From positions 1 to 64,000 of the forward strand of contig JAEUSP010000088.1 in the NCBI GenBank assembly GCA_016788565.1: a stretch of 64,000 bases of DNA. The letters are read 5' to 3'. The notes beneath the pieces are model-generated. The model worked only from the letters and a program-made list of their open reading frames with translations. It was not told the origin of the DNA and made no database searches. The stretch comes from Chlorobiota bacterium. Its GTDB lineage: Bacteria > Bacteroidota > Ignavibacteria > OLB7. Shown piece by piece: positions 10,488 through 43,343 of this stretch; position 1 is the first letter of the stretch; the number at the start of each line of letters is the position of its first letter. The translations under genes and the position numbers were made by a program.

Positions 10488-10600
10488 GGGGATCGGGGGG
10501 CGGGGGACGGGGATCGGGGGACGGGGATCGGGGGACGGGGACAACTCCAAGATTCGGCATTCGGCATTCGGCATTCGACATTCGACATTCGACATTCCCC
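10488..10600 (+). repeat. Composite heptanucleotide repeat block (G-rich plus CGGCATT/CGACATT)
   Basis: Immediately after the flippase stop come about seven units of GGGGATC/GGGGGAC (10488-10541), then AACTCCAAGATT, then about six units of CGGCATT and CGACATT ending in CCCC at 10600. Every unit is 7 nt. The rest of this 407-bp gap (10601-10893) shows no coding signal, only the recA promoter candidate. Confidence 0.9.
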
Positions 10601-17748: not shown

Positions 17749-17805
17749 GAACTCACATTGTCTGAACTCACATTGTCTGAACTCACATTGTCTGAACTCA
17801 CATTG
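17749..17805 (+). repeat. 15-bp tandem repeat directly before the BNR gene start
   Basis: Four copies of GAACTCACATTGTCT (17749, 17764, 17779, 17794; last copy partial). The array ends 11 nt before the ATG at 17817, where a ribosome-binding site would be. Confidence 0.9.
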
Positions 17806-17816
17806 CCGGCATACAC

Positions 17817-20800
17817 ATGAGCAACAATCGTATGAACAACTCAGCATCGAACCGTCTGCACCTTCGGCTGATGGTGGGGGGATTGCTACTGATCCTTCTT
17901 TCCCCGTGGCTCCGTTCGCAACAAGTAGAGATGGAGCGGGAAGAGGAGAACCCGATGAAGCGGATGGAATTCTACTTCAACCTTCGCTCCTACCCGTTCG
18001 GAACCATTCCGAAAGGGGCACGCCAGGATGCCATTCTTCAGATGACCGAAAAAATGCGGCAGCACCGCACACCGTTCCAAGCATTGAAGCAGTGGCGGCA
18101 GCTTGGCCCGTACGATCTTGGTGGCCGAATCCACAGCATTGCCGTTCACCCGACCGACGGGAAAACGTTGTGGTGCGGCGCGGCAAACGGTGGCGTGTGG
18201 AAATCCGACAACCGTGGCGACACCTGGCGGCCAGTGATGGATACCGAGAACTCACTTTCGATGGGGGCAATCGCTGTTGATCCAAAAAATCCCAACATCG
18301 TGTATGCCGGAACCGGAGAGCCGGTGAGCGCAAACGGCGACACCTACAACGGCGCAGGGATTCTGAAAAGCATTGACGGTGGCGAGACTTGGACGACGCT
18401 GGGGCTAACCAACGTGGGGTCCATCACCGACATTGTGATCAACCCAACCAACACCAACAACATCATCGCCAGCGGCGTTCGGAACAACGCGGGGTTGTAC
18501 TGGACCGAGGATGGCGGCAACACCTGGACCCGGTCATCGAACATTGCGATTGCAGACCTTTCGATGCACCCCACCAACCCGAATATCTTGCTGATCGGAA
18601 CCTTCAGCAACGGGCTGTACCGCACCACCGATGGCGGGAAAAGCATCGGCACAAAAATGGGGGGGATTGGCAACGCAAACCTGACGGTCAGCCGTATCTC
18701 GGTGGAGTTTGCCCGCAGCGATGGGAACATCGCCTACGCATTGGCCTACGAATACCCGGGAACCACAATCCATTATTCTCGCATCTACAAATCGGTCAAC
18801 GGCGGGCAAAGCTGGACCAACTCCTTCGATAGCGACCGCAACGGGATTGACTTTTTGGCAAACGTTGCCCAAAGCCAGGGGTACTACAACAACGTTATCT
18901 CCGTCCACCCCACCAACCCGAACATTGTGCTGGCCGGTGGTGTCTATATGGTTCGGACCGACAACGGCGGGAACACCTGGACGGAAGTTGGCGACGAGGT
19001 TCACGTGGATCACCACGCAATGGCCTTCGACCCCGAAAATCCCAACACCTTCTACAGCGGGAACGACGGCGGGATGTACCGGAGCGAAAATGCGGGCCAG
19101 TCGTACGACAAAAAATCGCGGGGGCTGGCCATTACTCAGTTCTACGCAATGGCAGTTGACCAGAAGAAAGACAGCCTGAATTACGGCGGAACCCAAGACA
19201 ACGGAACCGTCACCAGCAGCTCGGCAGTCTATGGGAACATCATGGGAGGCGATGGCTTCTTTGTGGTGGTGGACCACACCAACTCCAACATCTACTACGC
19301 CGAAAATCCAAACGGTGAGAACATTTCTCTGTTCCGCAACGGCCAACGCTCCACGGTGATGCGGGGGATTGATACCGACGAAGAAGCCGGCTGGGCCGCA
19401 CCGTTGGTGATGGACCCTGCACGACCGGAAGTGATGTTTGCCGGGCGGCGTTCGGTGTATCGCTCGATCACTGCCGGAACTTCTTCCATGGTCTGGGAGC
19501 GGGTTAGCCCATTCTTTGATGGTGTAGTTTCGGCGATTGCTGTCAGCCCTGCCAAAAGTGAGGTGGTGTATGCCGGAAGCACGCAAGGTACGGTGATGGT
19601 TTCCACCGATGCAGGGGAGCAGTGGAGCGATGTTTCCAACGGCCACGGGCTTCCCAACCGCGCCGTCACCGATTTTGCTCCCTCGCTGAAACAGCCCGGA
19701 ACCGCATTCATCAGCTACAGCGGGTTTTATTCTTCGCACGTGTACCGCACCACTGATTTTGGCCAAACCTGGAGCGACGCAAGCAACGGGCTTCCCGACA
19801 TCCCGATCAACGCGCTGGCGATTCATCTGGATGACGACAACATCATCTACGCCGGAAGCGACGTTGGGATGTTCATCAGCACCGATGCAGGGAACACGTG
19901 GGCCAGCTACAACAACGGCTTCCCCCGCACCGAAATCCGGGACATTGAGCTTCACAAAACCAAACGTGTGGTGCGCGCCGCCACTCACGGGCGCAGCATG
20001 TGGGAGGTTGATGTAGAGGTTCCCGCCATTCCCCCTTCCATCACCTCACCCGTTGGCGGGGAAGTCTGGCGCGCAAGCACAAGCCAGATACTTTCGTGGC
20101 ACGGATTCACCGGCCCGGTGCATCTGGATTACTCGCTGGACAATGGCCGCACGTGGAAACGGCTGAAAAACAACCTTGCCGGCGACGTGATGCGCTGGGT
20201 GGTGTTCGACACCGCAGTCATGGAGGCCAAAATCAAAGTGACCTCCATTCAGGAGCCTTCGCAAAGCGTTGTTAGCAACAGCTTCACGATTGAACGCTAC
20301 CAAGTTGGAACAGTGCTGAACGCAACCGGCGCGCCGGGGGTCCCTTACGGAATCTGCTACGATGGCCAGTTCCTGTGGGCAACCAATTTCAGCAGCAACA
20401 AACTGCTGAAAATTGATCCGAAGACACTGATCTCGGTTGCCGAGGTCCCTGTCCAAATTGCTGGCGCAGATAGTCTGTTCACCGACATCACCTACGTCCC
20501 AGAACGGGGAACATTTTTTGTGCACCGGCTACGCTCAACTGGTGCCGAGGACCCGGGGGGATTCCTGTATGAAATCACGAAAGAAGGGGAACGGGTGAAC
20601 CAATGGACCTCACCGTTCAAATATCCAATCGGGCTTGCCTGGCTTGGTGCGCGGAATCCTGACCAACCCTACTTGTACATGAGCGATCGCAACGGCGCGC
20701 AGGAAGTGCGGATCGTCTCCCCCGATGCCCCGTTGGAGCCATTGCTGAAATACAACCGCTCCAAACAAGTCCGCTACGGCCCGCGTGGTGCATGTGCCGG

Positions 20801-21365
20801 GGCCGATGGATTGTCGGTGTGGCAGGTCATCACCGACTTCACCGGCGACGCACTGAACAGCGCGACCGCAACCCGCTTCAATTTCGACGACGACACCCAG
20901 GCGTTTTGCCCGATTGAGCTAACCGCTGGCGCGGCTTCCGGGTTTATCAACGCACGCGGAATTGAGTTAGACCCTGCCGATTCGAACATCTGGGTATCGG
21001 ACTACAACGGCAGCATCTACAAACTGACCACCTGCGATTACAAGCCGAATATCCCGGGGCCGGATACGCCAACCGATGCCCCCATCAACGTAGCGGTTGC
21101 CGGGTTGCGGCTTTCGGAAAACCGGCCAAACCCGTTCACTTCGGCAACGGATGTCAGCTTCGCAATCGGGACCTCAGCCTCCGTTGGGTTCCGCTTGGTG
21201 GACCTGCAAGGGCGGACGGTGATGGAGACCGAGGCAGCAGTGTACGAGCCTGGCGAGCACACGGCCCGGTTGCAGCCGATTGGCATTGCTGCCGGAACCT
21301 ACCGTTTGGTGATGTACGCCAACGGCCAGCCAACCGAATCGCGGGCTGTGGTTTATCTGAAGTAG
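17817..21365 (+). CDS. Large secreted BNR/VPS10-like propeller protein with type IX C-terminal domain
   Basis: An 1182-residue exported protein. A signal peptide (LHLRLMVGGLLLILLSPWLRSQ) precedes two beta-propellers rich in Asp boxes such as KSDNRGDTW, SIDGGETW, TEDGGNTWTR, RTDNGGNTW, STDAGEQW and STDAGNTW, the layout of sortilin/xyloglucanase-like domains. Around residues 735-830 there is an Ig-like segment (ITSPVGGEVWRASTSQILSW), then an NHL-like stretch (GICYDGQFLWATNFSSNKLLKID). The last ~85 residues (SENRPNPFTSATDVSFAI to GIAAGTYRLVMYANG) are a clear type IX sorting domain, so it is expected outside the outer membrane. Enzymatic activity is not evident. A second in-frame ATG lies at 17832. 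Confidence 0.9.
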   Translation: MSNNRMNNSASNRLHLRLMVGGLLLILLSPWLRSQQVEMEREEENPMKRMEFYFNLRSYPFGTIPKGARQDAILQMTEKMRQHRTPFQALKQWRQLGPYDLGGRIHSIAVHPTDGKTLWCGAANGGVWKSDNRGDTWRPVMDTENSLSMGAIAVDPKNPNIVYAGTGEPVSANGDTYNGAGILKSIDGGETWTTLGLTNVGSITDIVINPTNTNNIIASGVRNNAGLYWTEDGGNTWTRSSNIAIADLSMHPTNPNILLIGTFSNGLYRTTDGGKSIGTKMGGIGNANLTVSRISVEFARSDGNIAYALAYEYPGTTIHYSRIYKSVNGGQSWTNSFDSDRNGIDFLANVAQSQGYYNNVISVHPTNPNIVLAGGVYMVRTDNGGNTWTEVGDEVHVDHHAMAFDPENPNTFYSGNDGGMYRSENAGQSYDKKSRGLAITQFYAMAVDQKKDSLNYGGTQDNGTVTSSSAVYGNIMGGDGFFVVVDHTNSNIYYAENPNGENISLFRNGQRSTVMRGIDTDEEAGWAAPLVMDPARPEVMFAGRRSVYRSITAGTSSMVWERVSPFFDGVVSAIAVSPAKSEVVYAGSTQGTVMVSTDAGEQWSDVSNGHGLPNRAVTDFAPSLKQPGTAFISYSGFYSSHVYRTTDFGQTWSDASNGLPDIPINALAIHLDDDNIIYAGSDVGMFISTDAGNTWASYNNGFPRTEIRDIELHKTKRVVRAATHGRSMWEVDVEVPAIPPSITSPVGGEVWRASTSQILSWHGFTGPVHLDYSLDNGRTWKRLKNNLAGDVMRWVVFDTAVMEAKIKVTSIQEPSQSVVSNSFTIERYQVGTVLNATGAPGVPYGICYDGQFLWATNFSSNKLLKIDPKTLISVAEVPVQIAGADSLFTDITYVPERGTFFVHRLRSTGAEDPGGFLYEITKEGERVNQWTSPFKYPIGLAWLGARNPDQPYLYMSDRNGAQEVRIVSPDAPLEPLLKYNRSKQVRYGPRGACAGADGLSVWQVITDFTGDALNSATATRFNFDDDTQAFCPIELTAGAASGFINARGIELDPADSNIWVSDYNGSIYKLTTCDYKPNIPGPDTPTDAPINVAVAGLRLSENRPNPFTSATDVSFAIGTSASVGFRLVDLQGRTVMETEAAVYEPGEHTARLQPIGIAAGTYRLVMYANGQPTESRAVVYLK

Positions 21366-21428
21366 CCAGCACCAAGAAGCGGCGCGCAATGCTGCTTCCA
21401 TACCGGAACGCTGTTGCATCCTGACACT

Positions 21429-21549
21429 AGGAGCCAAGCGATGAGCCTACACGAAACCGGTAGAATGGTGCGTCATAAGGATTGAGTGGTGAAATCCAAG
21501 CAGACTGACACCACAGACCCGCAAGGGTAGTTCAGGGTGCTTGGCTCTA
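21429..21549 (+). ncRNA. Candidate structured RNA upstream of bshB1 (possibly HEARO/omega-RNA-like)
   Basis: A ~120-nt segment closed by a perfect 9-bp stem (GAGCCAAGC at 21431-21439 with GCTTGGCTC at 21539-21547). Inside are a stem ACC/GGT region, GGATT..AATCC (21479-21496), GTGGTG..CACCAC (21486-21513) and a GNRA hairpin ACCC-GCAA-GGGT (21517-21528). No frame codes through it. A strong terminator follows about 30 nt later. The order of hairpins, the GATGA near the 5' end and GTTCA near the 3' end recall HEARO/omega-RNA elements, but that is a memory-based guess. Alternatively it is a leader controlling bshB1, or an unknown small RNA. Confidence 0.5.
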
Positions 21550-21578
21550 AACTCCTCCTTTTTGTTGTGATGGGTGTG

Positions 21579-21614
21579 AATGCTGCTCTCGGTTTCGGGA
21601 GCAGCATTTTTTTT
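21579..21614 (+). terminator. Intrinsic terminator after the candidate RNA
   Basis: A 10-bp stem (AATGCTGCTC, 21579-21588, pairing with 21599-21608) with a TCGGTTTCGG loop is followed by a T-tract to 21614. It stands 135 bp before the bshB1 ATG. It may end the upstream BNR transcript, a free small RNA, or act as an attenuator. Confidence 0.9.
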
Positions 21615-21748
21615 ACTCACCTTCCGGCGCGGAAACCGTTGCGTTCAGGCGTATTTTTTCTGCACGTGAAAATCCAACGGGTCTCCAAACTGGAATCCAA
21701 TTCCCAGTCCAATCCAAAACAACAACTTCACTTCACAATCCAACAATC

Positions 21749-22513
21749 ATGGCAGAACAAGAACCGGGGGGTGTTGATATTCTTGCAATCGCGGCTCATC
21801 CTGATGATGTTGAGCTTCACATTGCCGGAACGGTGATGAAATCAATCGCGCAAGGGCATCGCGTGGCAATTTGCGATTTGACCGCTGGCGAACGTGGGTC
21901 GCGGGGGTCGCGCCAGTTGCGCCAGCAGGAGACCGCCGCCGCCAACACTATTCTTGGCATTCCAGAAGGCAATCGGGTGAATTTGGGGATACCGGATGGT
22001 GATATCCAGCTTTCGCCGGCGAATGTGCTGAAGGTGGTTGGTGTGATTCGCAGGTTTCGCCCGCGGGTGATCTTGTTCCCAGCCCAGCGGGACCGCCACC
22101 CCGACCACGAAGCGGCTCACCAGTTGGTATGCCGTGCCTATTTCGATGCAGGACTGATTGCCGTTGAAAGCAATGATGATGACGGCCGCGCACAATCGCC
22201 ACACCGCCCCGTGCGGATGTTCATGTACTCACACTCATGGGAGGATGAACCCGATTTCGTGGTGGATATCAGCGATTTTTTTGAGCGAAAGTTGGATGGG
22301 TTAGCCGCCTACGGCTCGCAATTCTCCGTCCCCGGAAGGAATGTGGAAGACCCAGCAATGGGGCCACAAACATTCATCTCCAGCAACGAGTTCATGGAGT
22401 ACTACATCGCACGAATGCGCCGCTTAGGCTTCCAAATTGGGGCGCGATACGGCGAAGGATTCCAAACCTGGGGCGGCCCGCTGAAAGTGGAAGATTTGCT
22501 GAGCACTGTCTAA
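21749..22513 (+). CDS. bshB1: Bacillithiol biosynthesis deacetylase BshB1
   Basis: A 254-residue PIG-L/LmbE-family zinc deacetylase. The metal motif AHPDDVELH lies at residues 16-24 and the second motif is RHPDHEAAH. TAGERGSRGS and DISDFFERKLDGLAAYGSQF are the characteristic stretches of BshB1, which removes acetyl from GlcNAc-malate to give GlcN-malate, the precursor of the thiol bacillithiol. BshA and BshC are not in the window. The gene follows the structured RNA and terminator by 135 bp; the leader between has no strong ribosome-binding site. Confidence 0.92.
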   Translation: MAEQEPGGVDILAIAAHPDDVELHIAGTVMKSIAQGHRVAICDLTAGERGSRGSRQLRQQETAAANTILGIPEGNRVNLGIPDGDIQLSPANVLKVVGVIRRFRPRVILFPAQRDRHPDHEAAHQLVCRAYFDAGLIAVESNDDDGRAQSPHRPVRMFMYSHSWEDEPDFVVDISDFFERKLDGLAAYGSQFSVPGRNVEDPAMGPQTFISSNEFMEYYIARMRRLGFQIGARYGEGFQTWGGPLKVEDLLSTV

Positions 22514-25176: not shown

Positions 25177-25265
25177 GAATGTCGAGTGTCGAGTGTCGAG
25201 TGTCGAATGTCGAATGTCGAATGTCGAGTGTCGAATGTCGAGTGTCGAATGTCGAATGTCGAATG
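25177..25265 (-). repeat. Heptanucleotide array (CGACATT/CGACACT) at the cysS start
   Basis: About 12.7 units of a 7-bp repeat; on the minus strand it reads CGACATT with CGACACT variants, ends in CCAAC and is followed directly by the cysS ATG. The same unit occurs at 10553-10600, 30459-30491, 32895-32929 and 46882-46917. Confidence 0.95.
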
Positions 25266-30378: not shown

Positions 30379-30387
30379 AAGCTCTAT

Positions 30388-30491
30388 CACTCTTCACTCT
30401 TCACTCTTCACTCTTCACTCTTCACTCTTCACTCTTCACTCTTCACTCTTCACTCTTGCATTCGACATTCGGCATTCGGCATTCGACATTC
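30388..30491 (+). repeat. CACTCTT array followed by CGACATT/CGGCATT array
   Basis: Ten perfect CACTCTT units (30388-30457) run into about five CGACATT/CGGCATT units (30459-30491). The array touches the stop codon of the downstream-ending Fn3 gene (minus strand). Confidence 0.95.
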
Positions 30492-33056: not shown

Positions 33057-36000
33057 TCACCTTGGGTGCCAAATCCTTAAGTGAAATGGCGCATCACCCG
33101 CAGCTGGACTTCCCTGACTTACTTCAGGGACGCTCACTACGCGCTCCCATGGGAACTGCGCCATAAGCCCCGAACATCGTTGCCAAATACGGATGCCATA
33201 GGTGACTTCTTGAACAGTGTAGATGTTATCGCCGTTGGATCGCCCGTAGTAGAAGGGGATAAAGTGGTCACTGCCACTCTTCCAATGGTAGTCGTATGGA
33301 CGCGGACCCGCGCGATGATCCCGCCAGTAATTATAATTCCATCCTACATTAGGATCAGGATGAAGAATGCGTCTTCCAAATTCATCAACGTTTGCCTTCA
33401 TCTGGTACAAGTAATCGTAGGCATAGTCGAAGGAGAAGATCACGGATTTGCCGTTATTGGTTAATCCACCACTGTCAAGAGCGATATGTCGGCGGCGGTT
33501 AAAGATATCCCTTGCATCCTGGCTAATAGTACCAGCATACTCACCACCTTCAAGAGCTCCCTGAACTTGATGCTTCCACCAATATGATTGCTTGATCAGG
33601 TTTAGATCTGGCTGAATCTCCAGTATCGGTTTTGATTTGTACCGCTTATTTCCTGTGAAATATTCATAATTATCAGCACCAATTTCATAGAGATCAAAAC
33701 CTTCTGTGCTGGTAATTTTCAGCTCCGTACGGTACGGCGTTTCTTCCACTACTTCCAGCTTGCAGTCTTTGAGTTTTGCCTGATAATTCTCATAGCGGCT
33801 TGTGCCAAAACTGAATGATGCCAACACCATTTTCTGGACATATTTTCGTGTTGTTGTTCCGCTAAGACTGCGCCGAGTAATCGTATCGGATTCTTTGCTT
33901 TGGGTTGCCTTGTTTATTGACTCATTTACAGTGCCAGTTTTGCCACCGTAGGCATCTGCCCGAATAAGCTCAATCTGATAGCGTGTACTCGGTTTCAAGG
34001 CTCGTGGGGTTCCTGTCAGGTTTACCGACCGCTCATGAGCGTCGTAGCTGGCTATGTAGCCTCCACCTAACACTAAAGTTCTTTGGCCATTCGGCATCAC
34101 TTCGTACAGATCGGCAGAAATCACAGTGATTGCCCCCGGAGCAGTTTTCTTATGTTCAATAGGATCGAACAGGTACGTTTGATTTTGCTCCAAGCGTATT
34201 CTGGCGTACGCAAACGTCTTTGCCGAAGTCTTGCATTCCCAATCTTCGATAAAGAATCGCTGATCGGTTTCCGGTGTGGTATAAGCCACATTTTCCTGTG
34301 GGATGGTTGTGGGCCGGTCGCCGCTGGTGAAGGTGATGGTCGTGTCTTCCACCATCTGCTTGCCGTCGTATTGGGCATCCTTCCATTGACCATTGACCAG
34401 CTGCACCATCTTCACCCGCACCATTACGCGGTGTTCGGTTTTTGATTCCATCAAACTTTCTGGAATCAGTTCTGCTGTGATTCCATCGCCGGCAATCTTC
34501 TGTGTAGCCTTTACCGGAACGTAGCCACTACCCGATTTCTGCTCAAGTTTGATGTAGTCCAGCACCATGCGGTACCGGTCTTTTGTGGTCCCATTTCCTA
34601 ACTCCATCTCGGTGTTCAGCGCAATGTTGAAGGCCGCCCTGGGGTTGGCCATCACCGATACATCCTTCTCACCGGTGCGTGGTGTGATGTCGGAGATCAT
34701 TTTAAGATCGGCTAGCTCATCGCGCATCGGCGCGCACGGTTCGCCAACGGAGAACTCGAACTTGAAGCTCCCTTTTATCATCCCGCTTAGGACGCTGTAC
34801 TGCCCGGCCACTGCCCCTTTTGCCCAAGCGGGATTTGGCGCGCCCGCTTCCAACACCGCATACGCCTCGGCCTTGAAGATGCTGACGCTTAACCGCTTGA
34901 AGAAGAGCTTGACGCTGATGCCGATGTCGGCGTTCAGCCCAGCATAAATCTGGAAGTTGCCGTACCACCCGTTGATCCCGATTGGGCTGTTACCGCCGCA
35001 GTTGACGGTTGGCCCGTAATTCATCACCGAGGCATCGAACCCGGCTACGGCACTGATGTCGCCGTAAAAAATCAGGAACTCCTTCCGCCCCGTTTCAAAC
35101 GTGGCTTTCACACCAAACGCCAAGCCATCGCCGCTGGTGATCCTCATGTTGTCGCGCCCGCTTTTGTACGTGATCCCATTTTTATCTAGCCCAGCATAGA
35201 TTGCTTGGGGAATATCGGGCATGGCGGGGATGTCCTTGCCGAACATGAAGTAGCCTTGCACGTTCGCGAAATTCATCAACGTGACGTTCATTGGCCCCGG
35301 GTTAGCATTGGTCGTGTCAGGGGTGCCGAATTTCACGTACCATTTCTTTGGGGAAACATGAAGCCGGATTTTGGCACTTGCTTCCACCACCGGAGCTTGC
35401 TTCAAATCGGCATCAAATGTCCCGTCGAAGGTTTCGGTGGGCGGGGTGAACGTCAGGTCAATTTTCATCGTCAGTTTGGCATCGCTTCGGTTCGGGAACT
35501 TGGAGGTCATACCATAACCATCACCCTTTAGTGAAATGCGCCCAAGCCCCCAATCTTTGGTGATCTCAACCTCCAACGCAATATCCCCATTGAAGGCTTC
35601 CGGTCGGGTGGCCCCAAGCGTCAGCATCAGCCGCACACCAAACATGATGTTCTGATCGGGCTGGTACATGTAGCCGGAAAGGGATTCCCCAACCTTTGCT
35701 TTGCTGGGGTCGGAACTGGATTCCAACGGAAGTTTTGGGCCGGGAACGGTTGTGTCGCGCGCCATGTTGAACCACAACCCGCCGCCGCCGCCGTAAAAAC
35801 TCAGCCCCGTTTGGATTGCCCCCACACCCAGCGGGATTCCCGGGGTGAACTTGGCGGCAAAGTCTATCAGCCCGTAGCGGAATTTGGAGCTACCCTTCGG
35901 CTCCACTGCGCCGAACTGCGCCACAACATCAACCTGGATTTTTTCCAAGATATTCGCCACCACCTTGCCGTAAAATCCGGTCCCATATTTGGAGTCGTTG

Positions 36001-39000
36001 CGGTAGAAGATGACGGTCCCTTTCACGCTAACGGCGGGGCCAACTGTGGCATCAACATCAATGCGGTTCACGTCAACACGCTTGAAAACGAATTTCTGCG
36101 CGCCGGGTTCGGACCCCATCTCACCAATCACCGAAAGCGTTGTGGAGCCGCTGAAGGAGCCGTTGCCAAGTTTCAGCAAGTTCAGGTTCACCCGGAATTG
36201 CACCCCGATTTCCGGTTTCTCCTCGCCGGTGCTGATGGCCGTTACTCCATCAATGCTTAACGGGAAGCCGGCCAAGCCGCGCTGTTCCGGCGCGGGTTCC
36301 GGTTGCGGCGTGGAGGTTGCCGTTGCCGTTGGATCGGGAGCAACGCTGGTTCCGTTGCTTCCGCCAGCAACGGTGGTTCCGTTAATCAGCCAGGTGCCGC
36401 TGCTCAACACGTAGGGCTTCACCGATTGCACCTTGAAGTTCTGCACGGCAATATCCAGCGCAAATTTTGGCGGCTTGTTTGCTTCGGTTTCGCCGCTGCC
36501 ACCGCTCCCCTTGCCAAAGGCAATTCCCGCACTTAAATCCAACGTTGCAACCCACTTCAGTTGCTGCCCGCTTGCCGTGGAAGTTGGGCTGGTTGGCGTT
36601 GTTGTTCTGGGCGTTGTTGGGCTGGTTGGCGTTGTTGCGCCGGGCCGTGTGGTTGGCGTAACGGCTTTCTTTTCCAGCGTCACCGTCACGTTGTCCAACC
36701 GCGCCCGCGCAACCCAAAGGTTCATCGGGATAGCCTTAAGATTCGCAAGCGATAACGTGATTTTCGGGAGCCGCACTTTTGTGGCCGTTGCCCCGCCAAC
36801 CGGAGTTGTTGGAGTAGTGGTTCCCACCGGTGTGGTTGGCGTGGTGGGTGTGGTTGCCGCACCACCCGCTGGCCGGCTTGTGCTGACCGCAGGATACTCA
36901 ATGGTTGCTTTGTAGTTGATGGTTGTGTCGGCAATCGGCAGCTGGATTGCACCGGCAACCGAGAACGATTTGGGTGAGTTGCTCACCACTTCAAACCCTG
37001 CCGTGTCAATGCTGATTCCCCAACCGCCGGCACTCCCTTCGCTGATCGGCAGAAGGTTATGGGCCGCCGCGTTGCAGCTAATTCCGGTTTTATCAATCAT
37101 CAGATACTTCACCCCAATGGTGATCGCCTTGCTGAGGTCGCTCCGGTTGGTGAACGCATTCGGCAACCGCAACGATCCATTGGCCAGATAGAAGCCACGC
37201 CATGTTTTATCCATCGCCCCGGCATACCCTTCTGGGAAGATCATTCCGGGGGGATTTTCGGTGGTGGAGAAATCCAGAGCAATGCTCCCAATCTCCGCCT
37301 GAACATCGGGGGCGGTTGCTGGCGCAAAACGGTCAATGGAGCCAACCAACATCAGGTTGAACCCACCCACCGTCCGCGTCACCCGCTGCACCAAGCCCGG
37401 TGCTGGTTGCCCGGGTTGGGAAGCAACGCTGGTGGGGGTGGTTGGGGTTGTTGGAGCAGTTGGAGTTGTTGTTGTTGGCGCGCCCCGCCGCCACGTGAAC
37501 GCAAACCGTGCGGTGACAAGGCTGGACTCGTTGTCATCAACTTCCCCCGTGGCGGCGTTGATTGGCACAACCCACGCTCGTGGCAACTGCGCCTGCAATC
37601 CAACACGCACCGTCTGGATTCCTTTGCAATCCCAGGTGATGTAGGTTCCGCTATCCCCCGGCGTTGCTTGGCCCCCTTTCACCGTAAAGCTCCACGATTT
37701 TCCCGGCTCGGTGTAGCCAACATCCGAAGCCAGATAGAACTCCCGTTTCGCGCCGCTGAAGCCTGTTGGGGTGAAGCAAAGATTGCGCGCACCAAACCCA
37801 AGCCCACCGTTTGCGCCAAGCACTGGCAAGGGGATTTTCACCGCAGCAGCAAGCGCGGCTCCGGTTGGCTTAAAGGTCATGCTGGTGATGCCGAAGGTGA
37901 TTGCCGATGCCTCGGCAGCATCCCCCGATTCGCCGGTTTGCGTTGCCGCGTCAAGCCCAATCGGAAGCATCGCCCCTTCCTTCGATGCAAGGTTTTTAAT
38001 CAGGCGAATTGCTTGCGTTGCCGCGCTGTAAGCGGTGGCAATCCCGGTTTGGGTCCACTGGCTGGTCCCAACGGCATCCAACGCCTCGGCTGGCAGATTC
38101 ACGCTTGGCGCTTGCTTCCCTTTCACCTCGCCAAAGAAGACTTGGCGAGCGTTGTTCACCTTCAGCCCGGTAAACTCCACCGCAACGCTAATCCCCCCCA
38201 TGAACGGAATCCGAATTTTTCCTTCGCCGGTAAGATTTCCCGGGGTGGCATCGCTTAATGAGGTCAGTGACATGCCGAACTGCCCAACCCGAAGGCTATC
38301 ACCCACCACAAACGCCGCCGTTCCCAACGTTTTGTTGAGCGGCTCGGGAAGCTCGCAATTATCGGGGCAGTTGGCGTTGGCAAGCACCGCCGTGGTGTCG
38401 TAGCGGAACGTGCTGAGCGCGCTGGCAACCGTTGGCGCGGTGCAGCTTGCGCCGCTGGCAAGCAGTGGTTTCCCTGGCTTGCGCGTAATCACCGCTTGCC
38501 AGAAGTAGCTGCTATCCATTTTTGGAGTGAAGGTGGTTCCCTTCAGCGTCAGCAGTGATGTGAAGTCGCCGGTGGCGTAGGTGTTGGTGAAGTTGACTCG
38601 GGTCAGGGTTTGCGTAAAATCTGGAACGCGCCCGCTGGCCGATGCAGGGCTTTCGGCCACCCCAAGCGTGGAACGCCTGCGCCATATTTTCAGCTGGACG
38701 GACTCTATTCCGTTGCTGTCAATCGCCGGCGTTGCCTTCAGCGAAAAACCGACGGCCGGGGCGGTGAGTTTGCTGTCGAATTTTGGGGTTTCGGCAGTGA
38801 GGTAGGCGCACGTAGCGGAATCCACCGTTGGCAGCTGGCCGTTGATGCGGAAGGTCCCAACAATGGAGGTTGCGGTGTCGCGGTTGCAGGCCACAAGGTC
38901 GTTGCGGATGGTTGCCCCGTTGCCAGCGTAGTGCATGGTGAAACGCCAAGCGTAGGTGGCATTGGCTTCGCCAACAAAGCCTTGTGTGTTCAGGAATGCA

Positions 39001-42000
39001 AGGTCAATCGTGGCGGTGTCGGGGCGGGCTTTCACGCCGGCCGCTCCGGTGAAGCTGAATGCCGTGTCGGGGCTGGATGCAGTCCGCAAAGCAGGATTGC
39101 TCTTCTGCTGTTCGGTGGCCAGTTTCCAGAGTTCAATTTTGCCGCCGGTGACTTTGGCGGTGTTGATGGTTGGCTTAATCTGCACCGCAAATGCTGGCCG
39201 CAGCGATGCCGTCCAGTCGCCGCCGTTGATTGGCGATGATGGAGTGATTGTCATGCACTGCGCAATGGCAGCGGAGCCGGTTGTTACGGTGAAGTAGCGA
39301 ACCTCACTCCAAGCATAGGCCATCGTGTCGGAGGGAACCAAGCTGCGGAGCATCCGGCTGGTGTCGTTGTTGGCCAACCACTTCACCCGCCAGTAATATC
39401 CCCCCCGCTCCAATGGCATCGAGTCGGCGATGGTTTTATAGACTTGGCCAAGCGCGGTGGTTGCCGAAGCCACGTTCGTGAGCGGGATGTTCGCAATCAG
39501 TTTCCCAAACTTGGATTTGGCGATGGTGTAGTTTCCGGTAAACGGAGTTGGGGAAACTTCCAGCATCCAAATCTCGCGCACTTTGCCGATGCTGTCGCCA
39601 ATCATTCCACGGCTTTTTTCGGCAGCCCACACGGCTCCATCGTTCGGCACCACTTGCGCCGCCGTTGCCGCCTGCGCCGTCTGGAAGGTGAACTTCACAT
39701 CACCGCTCACCTGGGCGTTGGCTTCCGGGGTTTGCGGCAGCGGGCTGGTAAGCCCAACTTTCAGCTTCCCCCCCACCGGGTTCACCCATTTGGTTCCATC
39801 TTGGTGCCCCAGCGTCACCTGTGCCGACCACTCCAATGGTGTCCCAGCAGGCAACGACCACGGCGTAAGGGCCGACCCCGCTCCCAACAAGAATGGAGTG
39901 TAGCGGTTGTTGTTCGCTGGGCTGTTCAGCACGGCGGCTGTTGGCGCGCTGTTGTTTGCCGCAATGTACTCGCGGTCGTACAACGTTTCTTCAAAGGTGT
40001 AGCTGCGCACCCGATTCTCCAGCTCCCCCCCCGCTTTCATCACGCTCACTGTTGAGTTGAACGTCTTCATCACCGGGCACAAGGGTGAGTAGCGGACAAT
40101 GATCGGCACGTTGCGGTACGGGATAGGAACCACATCCGATTTTGGGAAGGTGATGGCAAGGATCGGCTTGGCGCAATCGGCTGCGTCCTCCTCCTTCTCA
40201 GCCGTGCCGTAGGTGAAGGAGCAAGCCTCGCTCCAGCCATCGTTTGGGAACTTGATGATCCCCCTGCTATCCACCGTTCGGACCCGCCACGCATAGCTTG
40301 TTCCCACCGTCAGCTTGGGGGATAATGGGCCGAACTGATAGCCGGTTACCGTGAGTCCGTTTGATTCCAGAAAGAGAGGTGTGCTGGCGGCCAAGATTGC
40401 CTCTTCGGGAGATTTCCCCCCCTCCATCGGTGTGGCAACAAAGTCATATCTCAACTGGGCATTCGCCCCTGCTGGAACCACCGCTGGTGTCCACTGAATC
40501 AGAAAACTTTGGGTTGGATTGTTGCTAACAACTTCGCCGCAAGGCCCCGCCGGGCGGGCAACATCCACCGTGCTGAACAGATCGCCATCGTAGATGAAAG
40601 AGCAGACTTCGCTTTGGCCGTTGCTGATAAAAGTCACCGCGCCGTTTGCGTCGTAGGTCCGCACGCGCCAAGCGTAGGTTGTGCCAACCTGAAGCGGTGG
40701 CTGCGCAATGCCGTACAGGAACGTTGTGGTTGCCAGCCCTTTGTGCTCAAAAAAGAATGGCGGTGCTGCCCCGGCAATCGCTTGCTCCGGCGTTTGTCCA
40801 GCGGCCACCGGAACCATCAACAGGTCATACCGAACTTGCGCCCCCGGTGCCGTTGGCGTGGACCATTGGAAGTTCACAACCTGCGGCTGCGTTGCGGTGA
40901 TTGTGCTTCCGCAAACGGGAAGAATTGGCGAAGCCCCCTGCACCGGAACATCATCGCCGTAGGTGAAGGAGCAAACCTCACTTTGGCCCCCATTGGTGAA
41001 AGCCGCCACACCCGCTGCATCGAAGGTTCGCACACGCCAAGCGTAGGTTGTGCCAACCAGAAGCTGGGGCTGCGCAACACCGTACAGGAAGGTTGGGGTC
41101 GTCAGATTTTTTTGCTCAAAAAAGAAAGGTGGCGTTGCCCCGGCAATCGCTTGCTCCGGCGTTTGCCCAGCGGCCACCGGAACCAACATCAGGTCGTACC
41201 GAACCTGCGCGCCGGAAGCCACGGCGGTGGTCCATTGCAGGTTCACATTCTGCGGCTGGGTGGGGATGATGCTGGTCCCGCAAATCGGCAGCGTTGGCGC
41301 AGCAGTAACCGCCACCGTCCCGTAGGTGAAGGAGCACACCTCACTTTGTCCATTGTTGATAAAAGTCACCGCGCCGTTTGCGTCGAACGTCCGCACACGC
41401 CAAGCGTAGGTTGTGCCAACCAGAAGCGGTGGCTGCGCAACGCCATACAACAGATTGGTGGCCGTCAGATTTTTTTGCTCGAAAAAGAATGGCGGCGTTG
41501 CCCCGGCAATCGCCTGCTCGGGCGTTTGTCCGTTTGGCACCGGAACCACCAACAAATCGTACCGAACCAACGCGCCGGGCGCGGTTGGCGCAATCCATTG
41601 GAAGCTCACGTTTTGCGGCTGCGTTGGGGTGATGGTTCCCCCACACACCGGGGCCAGCGGCGAAGCCCCTTCCACCGGAGCGTTGTCGCCGTAGGTGAAG
41701 GAGCAGACCTCACTTTGTCCATCGTTGCTGAAGGTCAGTGTGCCGGAAGCGTCGAACGTCCTGATTCGCCAGGCGTAGGTTGTTCCGATGCTCAATGTGG
41801 GCTGGGCAACGCCATACTGGAAGCTGTTCGCCGTCAGATTTTTCTGCTCAAAAAAGAATGGTGGCGTTGCCCCGGCAATCGCTTGCTCCGGCGTTTGCCC
41901 AGCGGCCACCGGAACCAACATCAGGTCATATCGAATCTGCCCGCCCGGGGTTGTTGGTGTGGACCATTGCAAGCTCACATTCTGCGGTTGCGTTGGTGTG

Positions 42001-43289
42001 ACGGTTCCGCCGCAAACCGGAACAAGCGGCCGCCCCCCTTCGGCCAAATTGCCGTAGATGAAGGAGCAGACCTCACTTTGTCCATTGTTGATGAGGGTTG
42101 CAATGCCCGCAGCATCCGATGTCCGAATCCGCCAGGCGTAGGTGGTCCCAACTTGCAGCGGGGGTTGGGCAATGCCGTACTGAAAATTTGAGGCTGTCAG
42201 ATTTTTCTGCTCAAAAAAGAATGGTGGCGTTGCCCCGGCAATCGCTTGCTCCGGCGTTTGCCCAGCGGCCACCGGAACCACCAACACATCATACCGAAAT
42301 TGCGCGCCGGGGGCCGTTGGTGTGGACCATTGGAAGCCCACATTCTGCGGTTGCGCTGGCACAACGGTGCTGCCACAAACCGGAGCCAACGGAGCCGCCC
42401 CCTCCACCGGCGTGTTATCGCCGTAGGTGAACGAACAGACCTCACTTTGCCCGCCGTTGCTGAAGGTCACGGCACCGGCAGCGTCGAACGTCCTGATCCG
42501 CCAAGCATAGGTTGTCCCGACCTGAAGCGCGGGCTGCGCAATGCCATACAGGAAGCTGTTCGTTGTCAGATTTTTCTGCTCAAAAAAGAATGGTGGCGTT
42601 GCCCCGGCAATCGCTTGCTCCGGCGTTTGCCCGTTCGGCACCGGAACCAGCATCAGGTCATATCGGGGTTGCGCGCCGGGGGCGGTTGGTGCAATCCATT
42701 GCAGGTTCACACTCTGCGGCTGCGATGGAGTAATCGTTGTCCCGCAGGCGGGAAGGTTTGGGATGGCAGGGGCTGGAAACACAATCGTAAAGCTGGCGCA
42801 GCTTGTCCCCCCCTGGGGCGATAACGGGAAGCCATCGGAAGCCTCGATCGCATCCACACACAGGGTGTAGGCTCCTTCTGGCAGGCGGCCGGTGCTGGTT
42901 ACTTGCGCCGCAGCACTGCCGTTGATATTGGAGTTATTCAGGTTGAACACACCAATATCAACAGCGTTTTTGGTAACGGTCGCGCCCGGGGCAAGCTCGA
43001 ATATCGCCGAGGAGAAATCTGGTTTTGTTGTTAGCTCAACTGCACCATCGGCACTGGTAAGCCTGGCTTGTAGGCGCACAATGTAGGTAAGCCCGTTGGG
43101 GTCGTTGTGGGTTATCCGTATCTGGGCACGGCTTGGGTTTGCCTCCCAAACAGAAAGCGCGGGATCGAACGGCGGGGCCAGAATGGTCATCACCGAAACG
43201 TTCGTGGGCTGCGCGTGCGCAACGTCCGGCAGCGCAAAGCCAATGGCAAACGCTACCGCCAAAACAATCCATTGAAATCCTTTGCTCAT
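33057..43289 (-). CDS. Giant secreted TANFOR-like protein with seven tandem Ig-like repeats
   Basis: A 3410-residue protein. Signal peptide MSKGFQWIVLAVAFAIGFAL..VAHA, then an N-terminal domain (about 28-160) with LPEGAYTLCVDAIEASDG, resembling the TANFOR domain of Bacteroidota surface proteins. Seven ~118-residue repeats follow (about 165-1030), each with CG..I.PTQPQNV..QW, GQTPEQAIAGATPPFFFEQ and VGTTYAWRIRT; the seventh is diverged. Further beta domains, three Pro/Thr-rich linkers (near residues 1950, 2150 and 2210) and a long C-terminal section complete it. No type IX sorting domain is recognised at the end, which closes in WERVVSVPEVSQGSP. The last ~500 codons are AT-richer. The gene lies 54 bp after the beta-barrel gene and both are probably cotranscribed. 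Role unknown. Confidence 0.9.
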   Translation of the reverse strand: MSKGFQWIVLAVAFAIGFALPDVAHAQPTNVSVMTILAPPFDPALSVWEANPSRAQIRITHNDPNGLTYIVRLQARLTSADGAVELTTKPDFSSAIFELAPGATVTKNAVDIGVFNLNNSNINGSAAAQVTSTGRLPEGAYTLCVDAIEASDGFPLSPQGGTSCASFTIVFPAPAIPNLPACGTTITPSQPQSVNLQWIAPTAPGAQPRYDLMLVPVPNGQTPEQAIAGATPPFFFEQKNLTTNSFLYGIAQPALQVGTTYAWRIRTFDAAGAVTFSNGGQSEVCSFTYGDNTPVEGAAPLAPVCGSTVVPAQPQNVGFQWSTPTAPGAQFRYDVLVVPVAAGQTPEQAIAGATPPFFFEQKNLTASNFQYGIAQPPLQVGTTYAWRIRTSDAAGIATLINNGQSEVCSFIYGNLAEGGRPLVPVCGGTVTPTQPQNVSLQWSTPTTPGGQIRYDLMLVPVAAGQTPEQAIAGATPPFFFEQKNLTANSFQYGVAQPTLSIGTTYAWRIRTFDASGTLTFSNDGQSEVCSFTYGDNAPVEGASPLAPVCGGTITPTQPQNVSFQWIAPTAPGALVRYDLLVVPVPNGQTPEQAIAGATPPFFFEQKNLTATNLLYGVAQPPLLVGTTYAWRVRTFDANGAVTFINNGQSEVCSFTYGTVAVTAAPTLPICGTSIIPTQPQNVNLQWTTAVASGAQVRYDLMLVPVAAGQTPEQAIAGATPPFFFEQKNLTTPTFLYGVAQPQLLVGTTYAWRVRTFDAAGVAAFTNGGQSEVCSFTYGDDVPVQGASPILPVCGSTITATQPQVVNFQWSTPTAPGAQVRYDLLMVPVAAGQTPEQAIAGAAPPFFFEHKGLATTTFLYGIAQPPLQVGTTYAWRVRTYDANGAVTFISNGQSEVCSFIYDGDLFSTVDVARPAGPCGEVVSNNPTQSFLIQWTPAVVPAGANAQLRYDFVATPMEGGKSPEEAILAASTPLFLESNGLTVTGYQFGPLSPKLTVGTSYAWRVRTVDSRGIIKFPNDGWSEACSFTYGTAEKEEDAADCAKPILAITFPKSDVVPIPYRNVPIIVRYSPLCPVMKTFNSTVSVMKAGGELENRVRSYTFEETLYDREYIAANNSAPTAAVLNSPANNNRYTPFLLGAGSALTPWSLPAGTPLEWSAQVTLGHQDGTKWVNPVGGKLKVGLTSPLPQTPEANAQVSGDVKFTFQTAQAATAAQVVPNDGAVWAAEKSRGMIGDSIGKVREIWMLEVSPTPFTGNYTIAKSKFGKLIANIPLTNVASATTALGQVYKTIADSMPLERGGYYWRVKWLANNDTSRMLRSLVPSDTMAYAWSEVRYFTVTTGSAAIAQCMTITPSSPINGGDWTASLRPAFAVQIKPTINTAKVTGGKIELWKLATEQQKSNPALRTASSPDTAFSFTGAAGVKARPDTATIDLAFLNTQGFVGEANATYAWRFTMHYAGNGATIRNDLVACNRDTATSIVGTFRINGQLPTVDSATCAYLTAETPKFDSKLTAPAVGFSLKATPAIDSNGIESVQLKIWRRRSTLGVAESPASASGRVPDFTQTLTRVNFTNTYATGDFTSLLTLKGTTFTPKMDSSYFWQAVITRKPGKPLLASGASCTAPTVASALSTFRYDTTAVLANANCPDNCELPEPLNKTLGTAAFVVGDSLRVGQFGMSLTSLSDATPGNLTGEGKIRIPFMGGISVAVEFTGLKVNNARQVFFGEVKGKQAPSVNLPAEALDAVGTSQWTQTGIATAYSAATQAIRLIKNLASKEGAMLPIGLDAATQTGESGDAAEASAITFGITSMTFKPTGAALAAAVKIPLPVLGANGGLGFGARNLCFTPTGFSGAKREFYLASDVGYTEPGKSWSFTVKGGQATPGDSGTYITWDCKGIQTVRVGLQAQLPRAWVVPINAATGEVDDNESSLVTARFAFTWRRGAPTTTTPTAPTTPTTPTSVASQPGQPAPGLVQRVTRTVGGFNLMLVGSIDRFAPATAPDVQAEIGSIALDFSTTENPPGMIFPEGYAGAMDKTWRGFYLANGSLRLPNAFTNRSDLSKAITIGVKYLMIDKTGISCNAAAHNLLPISEGSAGGWGISIDTAGFEVVSNSPKSFSVAGAIQLPIADTTINYKATIEYPAVSTSRPAGGAATTPTTPTTPVGTTTPTTPVGGATATKVRLPKITLSLANLKAIPMNLWVARARLDNVTVTLEKKAVTPTTRPGATTPTSPTTPRTTTPTSPTSTASGQQLKWVATLDLSAGIAFGKGSGGSGETEANKPPKFALDIAVQNFKVQSVKPYVLSSGTWLINGTTVAGGSNGTSVAPDPTATATSTPQPEPAPEQRGLAGFPLSIDGVTAISTGEEKPEIGVQFRVNLNLLKLGNGSFSGSTTLSVIGEMGSEPGAQKFVFKRVDVNRIDVDATVGPAVSVKGTVIFYRNDSKYGTGFYGKVVANILEKIQVDVVAQFGAVEPKGSSKFRYGLIDFAAKFTPGIPLGVGAIQTGLSFYGGGGGLWFNMARDTTVPGPKLPLESSSDPSKAKVGESLSGYMYQPDQNIMFGVRLMLTLGATRPEAFNGDIALEVEITKDWGLGRISLKGDGYGMTSKFPNRSDAKLTMKIDLTFTPPTETFDGTFDADLKQAPVVEASAKIRLHVSPKKWYVKFGTPDTTNANPGPMNVTLMNFANVQGYFMFGKDIPAMPDIPQAIYAGLDKNGITYKSGRDNMRITSGDGLAFGVKATFETGRKEFLIFYGDISAVAGFDASVMNYGPTVNCGGNSPIGINGWYGNFQIYAGLNADIGISVKLFFKRLSVSIFKAEAYAVLEAGAPNPAWAKGAVAGQYSVLSGMIKGSFKFEFSVGEPCAPMRDELADLKMISDITPRTGEKDVSVMANPRAAFNIALNTEMELGNGTTKDRYRMVLDYIKLEQKSGSGYVPVKATQKIAGDGITAELIPESLMESKTEHRVMVRVKMVQLVNGQWKDAQYDGKQMVEDTTITFTSGDRPTTIPQENVAYTTPETDQRFFIEDWECKTSAKTFAYARIRLEQNQTYLFDPIEHKKTAPGAITVISADLYEVMPNGQRTLVLGGGYIASYDAHERSVNLTGTPRALKPSTRYQIELIRADAYGGKTGTVNESINKATQSKESDTITRRSLSGTTTRKYVQKMVLASFSFGTSRYENYQAKLKDCKLEVVEETPYRTELKITSTEGFDLYEIGADNYEYFTGNKRYKSKPILEIQPDLNLIKQSYWWKHQVQGALEGGEYAGTISQDARDIFNRRRHIALDSGGLTNNGKSVIFSFDYAYDYLYQMKANVDEFGRRILHPDPNVGWNYNYWRDHRAGPRPYDYHWKSGSDHFIPFYYGRSNGDNIYTVQEVTYGIRIWQRCSGLMAQFPWERVVSVPEVSQGSPAAGDAPFHLRIWHPR

Positions 43290-43343
43290 CAGGCTTGAAT
43301 GGTTGGGATTATCCAGGTTGTGCATCATCTGTTCGGGTAGGAA

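Follow-up and report, generated by a model that had tools for sequence, protein, structure and literature searches.

We found that the intergenic DNA between the gene for a large secreted BNR/sortilin-type protein and bshB1 contains a real, conserved, non-coding structured element that ends in an intrinsic terminator. The reading that we favour for its core, positions 21449-21614, at about even odds, is a genus-restricted, stand-alone, terminator-ended small RNA gene (or the same kind of RNA arising by processing of a 3' UTR). An earlier note on the window (the whole stretch of 64,000 nucleotides analysed here) had proposed that 21429-21614 gives a structured, terminator-ended RNA with no reading frame. 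This proposal is supported by conservation in a genome of the same genus; the closing stem given for the RNA was mis-drawn, and the likening to HEARO was misplaced. Both an intrinsic terminator and a conserved non-coding structure were found at the locus. Judged from its sequence, the element is a plausible but ordinary small RNA candidate. It has little import beyond the genus, and its locus lends itself to testing in a lineage in which little RNA biology has been done.

The locus and its conservation within the genus

The stretch 21429-21614 is flanked upstream by the stop codon of the BNR/sortilin-type gene and downstream by bshB1, all on the forward strand. The features of the locus are as follows.

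17817-21365, forward strand: upstream neighbour, coding for a large secreted protein of BNR/sortilin type (PF15902 at 6e-32) whose tail is T9SS-like
21403-21429, forward strand: candidate promoter of the RNA, in a conserved block upstream of it (CCGGAACG/CTGTTGCATCCTGACACTA); the genome of the same genus has the same sequence save for a 2-nt insertion
21430-21448, forward strand: variable stretch that contains the 5' arm (21431-21439) of the closing stem drawn earlier; 9 of 19 positions identical (47%), flanks well conserved
21449-21577, forward strand: predicted structured RNA core, with an ACAC/GTGT base of 4 bp followed by a rod hairpin (21471-21572) that has internal loops; the rod fold is common to both species
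21517-21528, forward strand: tetraloop hairpin ACCC-GCAA-GGGT capping the rod; identical in both species
21545-21562, forward strand: pyrimidine-rich, anti-Shine-Dalgarno-like stretch CTCTAAACTCCTCCTTTT, 3' strand of the rod; within the 76-nt identical run 21538-21613
21578-21614, forward strand: intrinsic terminator with a 14-bp stem, a 4-nt loop and a T run, found by pattern scan; identical in the relative except for the last T
21749-22513, forward strand: downstream neighbour bshB1, bacillithiol biosynthesis deacetylase (TIGR04001, 248 bits; cut-off 182.5)

The tail of the BNR protein scored 22.5 bits with TIGR04183, slightly below the cut-off of 23. Directly upstream of the start of this gene is a perfect 15-bp tandem repeat (17749-17805; GAACTCACATTGTCT, 3.8 copies), which sits in a run of 59 nt that the same-genus genome shares without change. 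The end of the gene and the conserved block 21403-21429 are 37 nt apart, and 134 nt separate the terminator from the ATG of bshB1 in the window. Since the block 21403-21429 has no match to a sigma-70-type consensus, its role as a promoter is one that we infer.

Among 61 genomes of relatives, the element was found in one, the single genome of the same genus (JADZEY010000138.1), where it is 87% identical. It occupies the same position there, between the BNR/T9SS gene and bshB1, within about 43 kb of largely syntenic DNA. Identity over the core 21449-21614 is 90%, equal to or above that of most genes in the aligned stretch (76-92%, mostly 80-90%); other intergenic pieces are 73-86% identical. Positions 21538-21613 form a run of 76 identical nucleotides, the longest of any intergenic stretch in the aligned 43 kb. 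The intergenic alignment breaks off after 21616; 21617-21745 is unaligned, and the alignment is taken up again from 21746, three bases ahead of bshB1. In the relative the terminator is separated from the ATG by about 46 nt, and this stretch is not conserved. The limits 21429-21614 of the earlier note are better redrawn as 21449-21614 plus the conserved upstream block 21403-21429, the part 21430-21448 not being conserved.

The record JADZEY010000138.1 was deposited as 'Armatimonadetes bacterium isolate SJ842', yet its lineage carries type IX secretion-like tails. These tails (Por_Secre_tail just below cut-off) suggest a mislabelled MAG from the Bacteroidota side.

The element is present in a single copy in its own genome. 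Comparison with plasmids gave no match of note, and a viral scan was empty. A reading as a repeat or mobile element was rejected on these three results.

Predicted fold and coding potential

The stretch 21429-21614 folds at -72.8 kcal/mol against -56.0 +/- 4.6 kcal/mol in shuffles (z -3.7), a value matched by none of 200 shuffles; the terminator contributes a good part of this z-score. The strong terminator reported before was confirmed in the form listed above, and so was the GNRA tetraloop (ACCC-GCAA-GGGT), which is conserved. The several internal hairpins of the earlier description give way to one long rod hairpin with the GCAA cap, stacked on the terminator, and this fold is common to both species. 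The rod hairpin 21477-21562 alone had z -3.0 (matched by 3 of 300 shuffles). The relative without its terminator likewise had z -3.0, and with the terminator the values for the element here and in the relative were -4.5 and -4.9. In the two-species alignment of rod and terminator (50 pairs), 99% of the cells are standard pairs. One pair of the rod, 21505-21535, is compensatory, changing from C-G to G-C between the species; since the comparison rests on two sequences (shuffle control 246/500) and allows no statistical covariation, this pair is support and not proof. The rod/terminator structure is predicted, with backing from conservation.

The 9-bp closing stem described before, 21431-21439 paired with 21539-21547, is present in the window sequence. 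In the relative its 3' arm is unchanged but its 5' arm, which is part of the variable block, is not kept, so that pairs break. Three of the 11 pairs of the closing helix become non-pairs there and two weaken to G-U (86% paired overall); helices 2-5 of the same fold also break (80-90% paired). The covariation check suggested for homologous loci leaned towards the rod, with its one compensatory pair in two sequences, and not the closing stem. Without the terminator, the closing-stem fold had z -1.6 and was matched by 21 of 300 shuffles (about 7%). The 3' strand of the stem can alternatively pair with the internal CCAAGCA (21496-21502), giving the rod. For the relative, the rod is the fold of minimum energy, and it is so for the window sequence too if the start is set to 21403, to 21434 or to any later position. 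With a transcript start at 21423-21430, the closing stem wins by energy in the window species, so that a species-specific switch between closing stem and rod may exist according to these predictions. A pseudoknot in which GTGGTG/CACCAC crosses CCAAGC/GCTTGG would be compatible with the sequence; its positions are fully conserved, without variation, in both species.

No reading frame had been seen in the element before, and we likewise found no credible one. Among short ATG frames, 21441-21485 (MSLHETGRMVRHKD) alone has a plausible ribosome site, with AGGAG upstream. As read from the alignments, eight of its codons differ in the relative, each change being non-synonymous, and its ATG is replaced by TTG. 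A short leader peptide encoded at 21441-21485 was rejected for these reasons.

Known RNA families and distribution beyond the genus

The earlier note had likened the element to HEARO/omega-RNA and called for a comparison with Rfam, in particular with the HEARO model RF02033 and the riboswitch models. The whole window had no Rfam match at the gathering score, and RF02033 was unmatched at the locus to E=10 and, to E=1, in the own genome and 30 related genomes (31 together). The RRXRR domain of the IscB N-terminus (PF14239) had no match in the own genome and four related genomes, the control genome being likewise unmatched. The likeness was judged by eye from size and multi-stem structure; in general terms it consists of having several stems and a terminator, and it rested partly on the closing stem, which is not conserved. 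The element is also single-copy and syntenic, and we consider it extremely improbable that this is an orphan HEARO/omega-RNA lacking an iscB partner.

Sub-threshold Rfam matches at the locus are mainly to the terminator, the best being BTnc201 (RF04177) with 24.7 bits (cut-off 105; E 0.03). Like BTnc201 of Bacteroides and other terminator-ended, trans-acting small RNAs, the element is short, non-coding, structured, intergenic and lineage-restricted, and has an intrinsic terminator at its 3' end; it differs from them in that it has no common sequence family with them and no Hfq was found in its genome.

The genus's own 6S RNA, too diverged for Rfam, was also considered. The element resembles 6S RNA (RF00013 and the class-specific form) in being rod-shaped, about 160-190 nt long, single-copy and terminator-ended, and RF00013 has no match in the family of the window. 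Elsewhere in the class RF00013 gave weak full-length matches, from which a class-specific 6S model was built. RF00013 exceeds its cut-off in one of 31 genomes; the class-specific model matches 31 of 35. The latter places 6S RNA on another contig of the own genome (G000:C81:21292-21448, locus L056) and at G001:C1:44762-44916, whereas at the present locus it scores 6.5 bits or less, which is noise. The identification as 6S RNA is refuted by these matches, and we give it almost no chance. In the alignment fitted to the model, 23 of 34 pairs of the class 6S RNA (loci L038-L067) have compensatory changes, with 161 such cells against about 50 in shuffles. Rfam gave nothing to E=1 at five 6S loci of the window's family. 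Taken from sequence comparison, the class thus appears to have a class-wide 6S RNA that is mostly missed by the Rfam model, and this is a more general result than the small RNA candidate itself.

A search of 245 genomes of the class and 395 of the phylum (overlapping sets) with a model of the element found no homologue outside the genus, under strict filters and with a model from two sequences, which could overlook relatives that have diverged. When a collection of 84,980 species was scanned with a loose pattern, only the same-genus relative and two chance matches came up; the latter, in a Chloroflexota MAG and in a Pseudomonas, were both rejected as they lack a match to the model. No such RNA was seen upstream of bshB1 in three other family members and seven further class genomes, and searching around bshB1 and the BNR gene in family members at full strength gave noise only. 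The BNR orthologues of other family members end without such an RNA, beside a gene that reads as dnaA (a name taken from reading the sequence, not from a model search). Since the RNA is absent outside the genus, it has no old conserved role and is therefore young or fast-evolving.

Possible roles of the RNA

It had been suggested that the element could be a riboswitch or attenuator of bshB1. As a leader, the RNA would sense a thiol, a metal or a protein, and the terminator would be bypassed when bacillithiol synthesis is needed. Like known riboswitch and attenuator leaders, it is a structured RNA with a terminator ahead of a biosynthesis gene, and the order RNA, terminator, bshB1 on one strand holds in both species of the genus. 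As the short stretch between terminator and ATG in the relative is not conserved, a separate conserved promoter of bshB1 is not evident there. The locus differs from such leaders in having no match to an aptamer family or Rfam riboswitch and no linkage to bshB1 beyond the genus. The 5' arm of the terminator has only weak upstream partners in both species, and a convincing antiterminator is not visible, although antitermination by a protein would be compatible with this. The spacing in the window, moreover, leaves room for a promoter of bshB1. Hence a bshB1 leader is conceivable but doubtful. A genus-confined new RNA class, with a rod that responds to a thiol or stress signal and controls termination before bshB1, is decidedly improbable. 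If control of bshB1 were true, it would be, as far as is known from a short search of titles and abstract openings in which no RNA-level control of bacillithiol synthesis was found, the first such control proposed for this pathway.

A plainer explanation is that the element simply belongs to the BNR/T9SS gene as its terminator and 3' UTR, its similarity kept by the closeness of the species and its rod incidental. The element does follow close behind the BNR stop codon on the same strand, and the syntenic genes and other intergenic pieces are themselves similar between the two genomes. However, a plain terminator needs neither a 76-nt identical stretch nor a shared rod of 100 nt, the adjoining 21617-21745 does not align, and the family's BNR orthologues lack such an RNA; we consider this explanation unlikely. 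For a small RNA gene speak the same place in the relative, the identical run, the shared rod fold with its compensatory pair, the non-coding character, the strong terminator, the lack of a competing antiterminator and the single copy. Against it count the thin covariation from two sequences, the lack of a recognisable promoter, of Hfq (no match in the own genome or eight relatives) and of a long complementary target, and the restriction to the genus.

If the element is a small RNA gene, transcription would run rightward from a promoter in or near 21403-21429 and end at about 21614 at the terminator. The RNA would fold into one long rod hairpin with the GCAA cap, its base stacked on the terminator. 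Alternatively, the same RNA could arise by 3'-UTR processing after read-through from the BNR gene. Most likely it would act in trans as a regulator via the pyrimidine-rich strand 21545-21562 (CUCUAAACUCCUCCUUUU). The sequence of this strand is similar to the anti-Shine-Dalgarno end of 16S rRNA and suggests that the strand could mask ribosome-binding sites. The complement of 21545-21562 with up to three mismatches occurs nowhere else in the own genome, and no ribosome-binding site there is matched in antisense over 18 nt.

The window has further repeats outside the element. Tandem arrays of 7 bp (GAATGTC, CTCTTCA, ATTCGAC), mostly intergenic, are found at 25177-25265, 30382-30457, 10552-10597 and other places, and some of them also match other places on the contig of the relative. 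On the reverse strand, a reading frame of 3423 amino acids (33057-43328) with fibronectin-III/Ig-like domains includes about six copies of a 369-bp repeat at 40589-42746.
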